Shown: positions 155-5,591 of the stretch, one piece after another | Layout: each line of letters starts with the position of its first letter | Position numbering within the stretch: the stretch's first letter is position 1 | Origin: a virus | DNA: 64,000 nt | Virus record (IMG/VR): IMGVR_UViG_3300046804_003503 | Coordinates: 1 to 64,000 of that record | Strand: one strand, 5' to 3' | Translations under genes and position numbers: made by a program | The notes under the pieces: generated by a model | What the model was told of the DNA's origin: nothing | Databases searched by the model: none | What the model saw: only the letters and a program-made list of their open reading frames with translations

Positions 155-770
155 GTTTTGTTACCAGCGGATCTTTTACGCCCCGATCCTATAATCCACC
201 AATACTCCGATATTTTGAACCCTTGGAGCAAGGTTAAAACTGGTGGAAACCGTCCACGGAAATCCTCCCTGCAAAACGGGCATTGCTAGCACATAAGACC
301 CGTTTTGGTCTGGCTCTTGGGAACGGTTACTGGTTGTATTGTATCACACGGCCATGTAGCATTGCAATGTCTAGGCTGTTCGCCATACATAGTAAAGGAT
401 AATATCCAACGTGTGATTGTATTGTAAGGGCCACAATAGAGCGGAAGACATTCGCCTTCTTAAACAAACTCTATTCACATTTTTTCCGGCTTGTACAACC
501 GATGGTCCTTGTATTGAATCGTGGTGAGGACGCTATCCCCCATAGATAAGCACTACTATACAGCGTTTAAGCCCGCTGTCAACCCCACCCCGCATGACCC
601 GCATGACGGACAGTAGGTTTATCGTAATGGCTTAACCTTATCTAGTCCCTGAGCATAGACCCACGAATGTTTGTATTGTTTGACCGATTAGAACCAGCGT
701 TTCCTAGGACACTGATCCTCAGTTTTACGGTTACTCGGCCCGACATAACCAACAAGCGTTTGCTTGACTC
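155..770 (-). ncRNA. Candidate large structured non-coding RNA
   Basis: Over 600 bases hold no credible open frame on either strand, although genes elsewhere in this arm nearly touch. A strong sigma-70-type promoter (775-802) points into the stretch. Several perfect inverted repeats could form RNA stems: AAAACGGG at 273-280 with 299-306, ATCACACG at 343-350 with 410-417, AATAGAG at 435-441 with 469-475 (enclosing a smaller GAAG/CTTC stem), and GGTTA at 729-733 with 746-750. The word TGTATTG (CAATACA in the RNA sense) occurs five times. Phage genomes are known to carry large ornate RNAs such as ROOL and GOLLD near tRNA genes; membership in one of those is only a guess. A second promoter inside (555-582) means there could be two transcripts. 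Confidence 0.45.
555..582 (-). promoter_or_regulatory. Sigma-70-type promoter inside the RNA region
   Basis: Reading leftward: TTGACA (582-577), 16-bp spacer, TATAGT (560-555). It would start a transcript at about 548 within the candidate RNA region. It lacks the CGATA word. Confidence 0.55.
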
Positions 771-774
771 CTGT

Positions 775-802
775 ATTGTACACTCTATTATCGTCCTGTC
801 AA
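775..802 (-). promoter_or_regulatory. Sigma-70-type promoter with CGATA in the spacer
   Basis: Reading leftward: TTGACA (802-797), 16-bp spacer containing CGATAA, TACAAT (780-775). No coding frame follows for 600 bases, so it appears to drive the candidate RNA. Confidence 0.65.
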
Positions 803-832: not shown

Positions 833-913
833 CTAAGTCGTTTGCTGGTAAGGGTTTAGAAGCAAGGGGGCGGGCCGCGTTTCTCCTAAGTCGTTATTTT
901 CAAAGGATTTAGG
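833..913 (-). repeat. Tri-palindrome boundary element, copy A
   Basis: Two imperfect inverted repeats of the CCTAAGTCCTTA / TAAGGGTTTACG type (833-859 and 885-913) flank a GC-rich core, GGGCGGGCCGCG at 868-879. This copy has the core in the opposite orientation to the other seven. Its right arm overlaps the last nine codons of the gene at 886-1296. Confidence 0.7.
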
Positions 914-3647: not shown

Positions 3648-4352
3648 TTAGTGAGAGGGAAAAAGAACGTTAGCCAAACCCTTGACGCACAGATTACAGT
3701 CTACACTACCCTTAGTCGGTGTGCAAGTCACAATCCCACGACCACGACGGATTTCTGGGCAAGTGATAAACTTTTCGCCGTCAAGAATCACCAGTTTCGG
3801 GAGACTCTTACGCCACGCTTCCGCCGCAGCCTTACGCTTGGGGCGTTTCTTTGCAATCTTCTCGTCGCTATCGCACCATGCGAACAGTTTGAAACCGGCG
3901 AGTGATGCCGTAGCCTTATCATTAGCGTTATGCACACTAGCATATACATTCATATACTTTTCCATAGCCACAAGGCGACTATCGTAGATATGCGTATAAA
4001 ACCACATATCGGGAAGTGTAGTACCATCGGCAAGAATACTCTCGCAAGCCCACACTACATTATCAACGTAGTCGGTGTCAAGTTTACCGTCGAGGAACCA
4101 ATCACCACGCTCATGCCAGCGAATAGACTTACCTTGACGAATAGCGTCGAGAATCATAGAGCGAATGCGGCCACGCTCAGTGATTACATTCTGCATACCA
4201 GCAGGACGCACGTTAGGATACATCTTCTCGGTTTGCTCTGCATAGCAACCGTTACCCAAAAATGCACACGTTGACGGGCAAGTATCACCAACTGGCCTAG
4301 AAACGACCAAGCAACCCTTGCCTAACTTATCATTACCGTTTGCGACTTTCAT
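3648..4352 (-). CDS. Gp88-type cysteine-rich phage protein, 234 aa
   Basis: A cysteine-patterned protein resembling the Gp88-type family of phages, whose function is unknown. N-terminal CPSTCAFLGNGCYAE gives Cys25, Cys29 and Cys36; the C-terminus adds a second group (TCPEIRRGRG, TCTPT, DCNLC). Together these could hold a metal ion or an Fe-S cluster, which I infer only from spacing. The middle has an RWHERGDWF motif typical of the family. I start at the ATG at 4352 because GGGAG lies six bases upstream and the promoter at 4376-4403 would begin RNA near 4369, excluding the in-frame GTG at 4373. First gene of its operon. Confidence 0.8.
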   Translation of the reverse strand: MKVANGNDKLGKGCLVVSRPVGDTCPSTCAFLGNGCYAEQTEKMYPNVRPAGMQNVITERGRIRSMILDAIRQGKSIRWHERGDWFLDGKLDTDYVDNVVWACESILADGTTLPDMWFYTHIYDSRLVAMEKYMNVYASVHNANDKATASLAGFKLFAWCDSDEKIAKKRPKRKAAAEAWRKSLPKLVILDGEKFITCPEIRRGRGIVTCTPTKGSVDCNLCVKGLANVLFPSH

Positions 4353-4433: not shown

Positions 4434-4485
4434 AAAACGCGGCCCGCCCCGTTGTTCCTAAATACTTGCTAGATAAGGACTTACG
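4434..4485 (-). repeat. Tri-palindrome boundary element, copy C (left arm missing)
   Basis: GC core CGCGGCCCGCCCC at 4438-4450 and right arm 4457-4485 (CCTAAATACTT / AAGGACTTACG). In place of the left arm stands a TTTGGCA half-site (4424-4430). It separates the tRNA cluster from the promoter at 4376. Confidence 0.7.
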
Positions 4486-4490
4486 ACGAG

Positions 4491-4563
4491 TGACCCTACG
4501 GGGATTCGAACCCCGATAAACGGAACGAAAATCCGTTGTCCTAAACCGTTAGACGATAGGGCC
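4491..4563 (-). tRNA. tRNA-Glu (anticodon TTC)
   Basis: Full cloverleaf of 73 nt: acceptor GGCCCTA pairs with TAGGGTC (one G-U), anticodon loop TTTTCGT, T-arm GGTTCGAATCC. CCA is not encoded. Last of four tandem tRNAs. Confidence 0.95.
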
Positions 4564-4566
4564 AAA

Positions 4567-4638
4567 CTGGCAAAATAGGATTCGAACCTATAACCTAGCG
4601 GTTAACAGCCGCTTGCACTACCGTTGTGCTATTTGCCA
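4567..4638 (-). tRNA. tRNA-Asn (anticodon GTT)
   Basis: 72-nt cloverleaf: acceptor TGGCAAA / TTTGCCA, anticodon stem AGCGG / CCGCT with loop CTGTTAA, T-arm GGTTCGAATCC. CCA not encoded. Confidence 0.95.
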
Positions 4639-4641
4639 ATA

Positions 4642-4712
4642 TTACGGGACTAGGATTCGAACCTAGACAGAAAGGACCAAAATCTTTCGTGCTACCGTTA
4701 CACCATCCCGTA
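4642..4712 (-). tRNA. tRNA-Gln (anticodon TTG)
   Basis: 71-nt cloverleaf: acceptor TACGGGA / TCCCGTA, anticodon loop TTTTGGT closed by an A-C mismatch below a GAAAG / CTTTC stem, T-arm GGTTCGAATCC. CCA not encoded. Confidence 0.92.
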
Positions 4713-4784
4713 AGCCGACAACAGGACTTGAACCTGTAACCTACTGATTACAAATCAGTGGCTCTACCATTGAGCTATATCGGC
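4713..4784 (-). tRNA. tRNA-Thr (anticodon TGT)
   Basis: 72-nt cloverleaf: acceptor GCCGATA / TGTCGGC (with one G-U), anticodon stem ACTGA / TCAGT with loop TTTGTAA, T-arm GGTTCAAGTCC. CCA not encoded. First of the tandem tRNAs, directly after a small gene. Confidence 0.95.
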
Positions 4785-4796
4785 AACCACCGCAAC

Positions 4797-4943
4797 TCAA
4801 ACGTCAGCCTCCGAAGCATAAATATTGTACCACTCATTGCTATCGTCATATACGATAATATCTCGCTCATCATCGCCAATGAGTTCTTCGTATTCTTCTT
4901 GATCGTATGGGCCGCACCACTTCATGACGTTTTCGTTATACAT
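4797..4943 (-). CDS. Acidic mini-protein, 48 aa
   Basis: A short gene starting at MYNENVMKWCGPYDQEEY, with a strongly acidic, aromatic composition and no recognised family. CCGGA lies just upstream of the ATG, and the promoter at 4976-5004 starts RNA about 25 bases before it. The stop is only 13 bases before the 5' end of tRNA-Thr, so this gene and the four tRNAs are likely co-transcribed and separated by tRNA processing. Confidence 0.7.
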   Translation of the reverse strand: MYNENVMKWCGPYDQEEYEELIGDDERDIIVYDDSNEWYNIYASEADV

Positions 4944-4975
4944 GGTATTCCGGGAGGTTAGAGGATGGTTTATCT

Positions 4976-5004
4976 ATTATACTTTATACACGCTACTTTG
5001 TCAA
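4976..5004 (-). promoter_or_regulatory. Sigma-70-type promoter for the mini-gene and tRNA cluster
   Basis: Reading leftward: TTGACA (5004-4999), 17-bp spacer, TATAAT (4981-4976), both perfect consensus. It overlaps the last codons and stop of the nuclease gene at 4993. No CGATA word. Confidence 0.75.
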
Positions 5005-5406
5005 GACTTTTTCCAAAAGATAATCGGCGGCATCATGCACATTTTTGCTTTGATTATTCTTAGACGGTATTTTTCTTAATGCAAAAGAGCTAGTATATTC
5101 TGATAATATCTTATCTGGAACTAGGTATACCTTTCCATCCTCTAAATCTACAATACCAAAAAAATCAAATATACCCTGTTCATATATATAATGATAGTTT
5201 GGCCCACTTTTCTTAACTGATAATGTCAGAGTATTATTTTTTGGTGTTATTGCTTTTGATTGTATCCTTATTAGTTTTCCATCTTTTTCTGCGATGATGT
5301 CTATCTTTGATATATCCCCTTCCTCAGTAAAAACTGAGTATCCTAATCTAGATAGTTCTAATGCTATTGCAAACTGACCTATATTCCCTTTTCTCTTACT
5401 GTGCAT
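4993..5406 (-). CDS. PD-(D/E)XK nuclease-like protein, 137 aa
   Basis: Small nuclease of the PD-(D/E)XK fold. The visible pattern is KGNIGQFAIALELSRLGYSVF, then a Gly-Asp-Ile-Ser-Lys-Ile-Asp acidic position and an IRIQSK motif, matching the E...D...(E/Q)xK core of the PDDEXK_5-type family that includes archaeal Holliday-junction resolvases and intron-encoded enzymes. Here Gln takes the place of the usual Glu, as in many of these families. The start at 5406 is chosen for AAGGAG seven bases upstream. It lies between the tRNA-Lys gene and the tRNA cluster. DNA substrate unknown; it could be a resolvase, a free-standing mobile endonuclease or a degradation enzyme. Confidence 0.75.
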   Translation of the reverse strand: MHSKRKGNIGQFAIALELSRLGYSVFTEEGDISKIDIIAEKDGKLIRIQSKAITPKNNTLTLSVKKSGPNYHYIYEQGIFDFFGIVDLEDGKVYLVPDKILSEYTSSFALRKIPSKNNQSKNVHDAADYLLEKVLTK

Positions 5407-5462
5407 AATATTCTCCTTAAGTAGCGGATTCATTGTCCGTTACTATATTATACACAAAATAA

Positions 5463-5535
5463 TGGGTCATGTAGGACTCGAACCTACGGCCAAAGAGTTA
5501 AAAGCTCCTTGCTCTACCAACTGAGCTAATGACCC
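5463..5535 (-). tRNA. tRNA-Lys (anticodon TTT)
   Basis: 73-nt cloverleaf: acceptor GGGTCAT / ATGACCC, anticodon loop CTTTTAA on an AGGAG / CTCTT stem, T-arm GGTTCGAGTCC. CCA not encoded. It has its own promoter at 5592-5619. Confidence 0.95.
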
Positions 5536-5591
5536 AAAATACGGGTGTCTGCCATACTCGACTGTCTTTTATCTATGGCTTCTTTGATATC

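Follow-up and report, generated by a model that had tools for sequence, protein, structure and literature searches.

A conserved, modular RNA array with a probably tRNA-like module in uncultured phages

The closest described counterparts of the RNA array reported here are GOLLD and ROOL. GOLLD is phage-borne, several hundred nucleotides long, and found near tRNA islands, sometimes with tRNAs inside it; its 3′ part is invariant, its 5′ part is variable, and its self-complementary loops switch between palindromes (PMC12286853). ROOL, a large structured phage RNA of about 600 nucleotides that also lies near tRNAs, is an RNA-only multimer, and a cryo-EM study of GOLLD, ROOL, and OLE reports palindrome-switching self-complementary loops as the mark of contacts between copies of one RNA (PMC12286853). 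Two other systems bear partial resemblance to our locus. Phage tRNA arrays likewise consist of tandem small structured RNAs behind one promoter, and true tRNAs occur within some of our chains, but the modules of our array lack an anticodon arm and do not score as tRNAs. With tmRNA, one module (A) shares tRNA-like ends, a long P2 stem, and a pseudoknot. GOLLD and ROOL both form RNA-only assemblies, that of GOLLD being a homo-oligomeric cage. The array shares their genomic setting and their signature of self-complementary loops, and we know of no other large phage RNA with its modular plan.

The window analyzed here is the first 64 kb (64,000 nucleotides) of a 161,058-base IMG/VR virus record. 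The phage is tailed, with terminase and T4-type tail-fiber families detected. Its terminase is 25 to 28% identical to that of the nearest cultured phage, so the phage is distant from cultured phages, among which DNA searches gave no match to the left end of the record. The stretch from 155 to 770 had been described in an initial annotation as free of genes and rich in inverted repeats, and both descriptions hold. Its open reading frames are short and overlapping, with no convincing gene among them. No reading frame is conserved among relatives, module lengths fall in all three phases, and at most 9 of 49 copies of module A and 21 of 63 copies of module B are open in any one frame. On the minus strand, the stretch reads as a promoter followed by modules Z, A, X, Y, and B (Table 1). 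The last module has its 3′ end at 162, and the start codon of a small gene follows at 152.

Table 1. Positions of the array, its predicted parts, and neighboring features in the window.
Feature	Position	Strand	Basis
Dispersed element, core GGGCGGGCCGCG between imperfect palindromes TAAGTCCTTA...TAAGGACTTA	845..912	+	Upstream of promoter, outside RNA
Predicted promoter TTGACA-N16-TACAAT, sigma-70 type	775..802	-	Motif; 0 expected in shuffles
Module Z: three hairpins, last with palindromic loop CCUAGG	681..770	-	Homologues; fold z -1.92
Linker AACAATACAA	671..680	-	CAATACAA at 678
Module A: pseudoknotted, tRNA-like	520..665	-	R1 model and covariation
Module A stems: P1 665-661/524-520; D-like arm 660-658/647-645; P2 644-637/550-543		-	R1
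Module A pseudoknot 635-629 with 573-567; H2 579-574/565-560; T-like arm 540-536/530-526		-	R1
Linker ATTCAATACAA	509..519	-	CAATACAA at 516
Module X: closing stem GGaCCA/TGGcCC; one long and one short hairpin, the latter with palindromic loop UUGUACAA	428..508	-	Fold z -2.32
Linker TTACAATACA	418..427	-	CAATACAA at 424
Module Y: closing stem ATCACACG/CGTGTGAT; palindrome CATTGCAATG inside	343..417	-	Homologues L040, L041, L113, L155
Linker ACAATAC	336..342	-	CAATACAA at 341
Module B, always last	162..335	-	R2 model, covariation, and palindromic loops
Module B stems: P1 AACCAG/CUGGU; P2 UAACCGU/GGACGGUU; P5 GGAUC/GAUCC with loop GGGGCGUAAAA		-	R2
Module B variable stems: P3 (palindromic loop UGCUAGCA) and P4		-	R2
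tRNA island, same arm: Glu, Asn, Gln, Thr, Lys	4490..5536	-	tRNA search

In 47 of 48 relatives, module A is preceded by a −35/−10 pair at a distance of at most 450 nucleotides, as against 14.7% of random windows, and in three chains module A begins 7 bases beyond the end of the −10 box. The consensus promoter pointed out in the initial annotation is a real motif, while the promoter-driven transcription claimed alongside it is read from that motif: the minus strand from 770 to 162 would form one transcription unit starting near 768. A second candidate promoter, at 582 to 555, was rejected. The segment amounts to the two strands (5′ and 3′) of a conserved hairpin, and relatives replace its sequence without losing the pairing; as a covarying hairpin, it is not a conserved promoter.

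Folding energy does not set the stretch apart. The minus strand folds with a z-score of −1.08 (4 of 20 shuffles as good) and the plus strand with −1.16, so that the energy is no better than that of shuffled sequence; individual modules range from −1.3 to −2.3, and most single modules of the window fold about as well as shuffles. By energy alone the stretch is not special, and its structure is shown by covariation. Our home-made covariance models, whose E-values are rough, score the window's module A at 138 bits (model R1; E 1.6e-33) and its module B at 161.5 bits (model R2; E 3.7e-43). In alignments that are fitted to these models, and so lean towards structure, 94.6% of the cells of A and 97.3% of those of B are paired, with both partners changed in 24 of 39 pairs of A and 14 of 28 of B. 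The covariation score of A is 0.272 against 0.122 in shuffles, and that of B 0.330 against 0.134; none of 500 shuffles reaches either value. Slid partners score at most 0.071 for A, and the slid controls for B collapse. An initial MAFFT alignment of B agrees in direction with the shuffle and slide controls. The pseudoknot of A has double changes in 4 of 7 pairs: its strands are TTAAGCC and GGCTTAA in the window, and ATAACC/GGTTAT, ATAGCC/GGCTAT, or ATAGTC/GACTAT elsewhere.

The strand is also indicated by the alignments. G-U cells outnumber A-C cells 120 to 12 in A and 237 to 10 in B, and since G-U pairs are at least 10 times as common as A-C mismatches, RNA of the minus strand is the selected product. 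Comparison of relatives shows that dozens of uncultured phages keep the predicted folds of A and B, and we regard the existence of a conserved structured RNA array as close to certain. The interpretation in the initial annotation is partly supported: it was right about a structured minus-strand RNA of about 600 nucleotides near tRNAs. Of the outcomes that it named as refuting, a folding energy no better than that of shuffled sequence did occur, yet conservation of structure among relatives is strong.

Module A combines an acceptor-like stem of 5 bp with a D-like stem of 3 bp, a P2 of 8 bp, and a T-like arm. Some subclasses have a canonical or nearly canonical T-loop (UGCGAAU in locus L025 and UUGGAUU in L023); the loop is diverged in the class found in the window and noncanonical in most copies. 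Both the CCA-like end and the initial base pairs are variable, and we thus call the module tRNA-like rather than a tRNA. Unlike tmRNA, it has no tag reading frame, a short acceptor stem, and a mostly noncanonical T-like loop, and neither ARAGORN nor Rfam calls it as a tRNA or tmRNA; no module of the array reaches the 29-bit cut-off of RF00005 in Rfam scans. Outside the arrays, weak R1 matches include three tRNA-Gln genes of these phages, at borderline E-values of 0.05 to 0.9, two of which may derive from related contigs. This evidence, with the covariation of the stems, gives moderate support to a model in which A would adopt a tRNA-like body with a pseudoknotted domain in place of the anticodon arm. 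That the mimicry carries functional meaning is a tentative proposition, a little short of an even chance.

Other tRNA-like RNAs occur in these phages. The record of L025 (G001) has at 198416-198484 (minus strand; L183) a mini tRNA-like RNA of about 60 nucleotides that matches R1 weakly; it has a canonical T arm, a tiny D arm, and GGGACTAGA in common with A, but no ARAGORN call, and it may link module A to tRNAs. Genes of another type (L019 at 5449-5554, L022, and others) have normal D and T arms but likewise no ARAGORN call, and a structured insert of about 45 to 55 nucleotides replaces the anticodon arm. In L034 (6471-6606) and L090 (14026-14172), array modules have a 7-bp acceptor-like stem and a T-like arm around several hairpins, with fold z-scores of −2.3 and −2.5.

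Module B, the constant end of the chain, bears palindromic loops. The P3 tip UGCUAGCA sits on several unrelated stems, and in other B families the tip is UCAUGA, UUCAUGAA, UGAUCA, UGCGCA, UUCCGGAA, or GGUACC. A palindrome of at least 6 nucleotides falls within the central 14 bases in 9 of 17 P3 arm clusters against 3.3 expected (p 0.0018), a value that depends on the arm clustering and comes from an unplanned test of a pattern noticed while reading. Several B copies have no 6-nucleotide palindrome in P3. Palindromic loops recur in Z (CCUAGG, on differing stems), X (UGUACA), and Y (CAUUGCAAUG/CGUUGCAACG), and no clear one was found in the A modules. The loop sequence changes while self-complementarity is kept, a property that is necessary but not sufficient for kissing loops. 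Self-complementary loops on differing arms suggest self-association, as in GOLLD, ROOL, and OLE, and we give such association of the RNA an even chance.

The modules are set off by a common linker. The 8-base string CAATACAA falls at exactly the four module junctions of the window, and the linker motif occurs at 6.2 per kb in arrays against 0.33 per kb elsewhere, a 19-fold enrichment. As read from homologues, the stem of the last hairpin of Z differs in sequence yet is paired in the window, in L102, and in the common form. Homologues of X (L110 and L119) show compensatory changes, and the closing stem of Y is TCATGCG/CGCATGA in L040 and L113.

Through a neighboring protein we reached six phages that share the gene-free stretch, and patterns made from the conserved ends of B gave about 70 loci in IMG/VR, with more from wider patterns. 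R1 found 60 copies of A in one search and more in further searches; overall, A is present in about 90 loci, and more than 60 contain B. These metagenomic records are often fragmentary, and the samples are presumably mostly freshwater, as the sample numbers and one named contig suggest. That contig (L093; RFNS01000242.1, 4.6 kb, Alphaproteobacteria MAG LLD_269, Lake Lanier) came from a search of bacterial genomes; it bears A and B and is probably of phage origin, binned in error. Neither A nor B is present in the two remaining bacterial-genome matches.

Chains differ widely in composition. That of L020 is A-B, that of L026 is A, a 61-nucleotide module, and B, and that of L025 is A-A-P-B; L048, L066, L070, L090, and L124 bear other modules, and in L022 a tRNA-Gly precedes A. 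Within B single stems are swapped, the same P3 occurring with different P4 stems and vice versa, and lengths range from 92 nucleotides (in L072) to 186 for B and from about 110 to 163 for A. A is single-copy in most phage records. Comparison of the loci shows that the predicted modules A and B are exchanged with other modules, either whole or stem by stem. Such swapping of peripheral stems around an unchanged core points to a variable or adapting binding partner. Modules have been deleted, swapped, and minimized in nature, which provides ready-made experiments on which parts are essential.

Every B copy in the set examined has an upstream A match, except that of L051. There, no A is recognized by sequence; by eye, we read in other sequence upstream of B the same layout, with P2 GCATAGG/CCTATGC, pseudoknot AAGGC/GCCTT, and a T-like arm.

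The likeness to large ornate RNAs such as ROOL and GOLLD, suggested in the initial annotation, stands for size and tRNA setting but not for architecture, since this is a linear array of autonomous modules. Unlike in GOLLD, these modules are joined by a fixed linker and exchanged between phages, and neither sequence nor structure matches: across 17 phage records, the highest score of the GOLLD model (RF02032) is 14.5 bits, far below its cut-off of 150. ROOL (RF03087; cut-off 99.1 bits) gave no match in the 17 phage records, in a search run without a positive control, or in the Rfam scans. The array matches no Rfam family at strict or lax thresholds, in agreement with the earlier failure to place it in a named class, and we found no description of such an RNA in the literature, subscription papers and preprints being outside the search. 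The arrays form a modular class of phage RNA that is real and apparently undescribed, grouped with the large phage RNAs by setting yet separate from them.

How might such an array work? We propose that the transcript folds into beads in the order Z-A-X-Y-B, joined by unstructured CAATACAA linkers, with A as a constant tRNA-like bead and B as a constant last bead that is probably the assembly point. B, and probably also Z, X, and Y, would pair with their own copies through the self-complementary hairpin loops to give a multimer. More speculatively, the multimer might show tRNA-like surfaces to host tRNA-binding factors during infection, as a decoy or scaffold; tRNA-cleaving defense nucleases or tRNA-processing enzymes are candidate factors, and an arms race would then account for the swapping of modules and peripheral stems. 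This explanation as a whole has, in our estimate, somewhat better than an even chance. The decoy role by itself is speculative and rather improbable, although the tRNA-like shape, the location in a tRNA-rich arm, and the fast exchange would all agree with it. It is doubtful, too, whether the array represents a categorically new kind of phage RNA in which tRNA-like bodies without anticodons, strung as beads on a fixed linker and self-assembling through palindromic loops, recombine as cassettes between phages in response to host defenses that target tRNA. The array nevertheless connects the large phage RNAs with tRNA mimicry in a testable way.

The main competing explanation is a polycistronic small-RNA operon in which the linkers are processing sites and the modules separate regulatory or tRNA-like RNAs with their own targets and no multimer, comparable to a tRNA array that does not decode. 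The self-closing ends of the modules, their independent exchange, the linker conserved between them, and the true tRNAs within the chains of L022 are all consistent with it. However, B invariably ends the chain and A is seldom missing, which suggests that the chain works as a unit, and no processing motif was identified; we consider the operon unlikely on balance. A cis-regulatory, riboswitch-like leader is very improbable. A start codon does lie within tens of bases after B in the window and in several relatives, but the modules are long and numerous, and in other phages B is followed at once by a new promoter. The riboswitch reading was rejected because different phages have different genes downstream.

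Selection could instead act on pairing in DNA, whether in cassettes folded as single strands, like integron attC sites, or in cruciform sites of recombination or replication. Cassette-like exchange with a constant 8-base junction, and the imperfect palindromic DNA repeats that adjoin the array, are in keeping with this. G-U is nevertheless 10 to 24 times as common as A-C, a pattern to be expected of RNA from this strand and not of DNA; nearly all chains follow a promoter, and the pseudoknot covaries, which leaves a DNA-level element highly improbable. The nearby tRNA island and the unexceptional folding of single sequences might also suggest decayed tRNA genes with chance hairpins and no function. 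This reading is refuted by the covariation of A and B, far above shuffles; with the G-U/A-C asymmetry and the conserved promoter also against it, its probability is negligible.

Two further elements were observed in the array-bearing phages. The dispersed element upstream of the promoter has about 10 copies, confined to 12 kb at the start and 5 kb at the end of the record (others at 4449, 6697, 8151, 9934, 10765, and 11850, minus strand; record positions 155952 and 157934, plus strand, and 160050, minus strand), and similar dispersed elements adjoin arrays in L018, L020, and L022. In L110, a Pistol ribozyme (3945-4007, plus strand; 55.7 bits, cut-off 34.5) lies about 150 bases before a tRNA.
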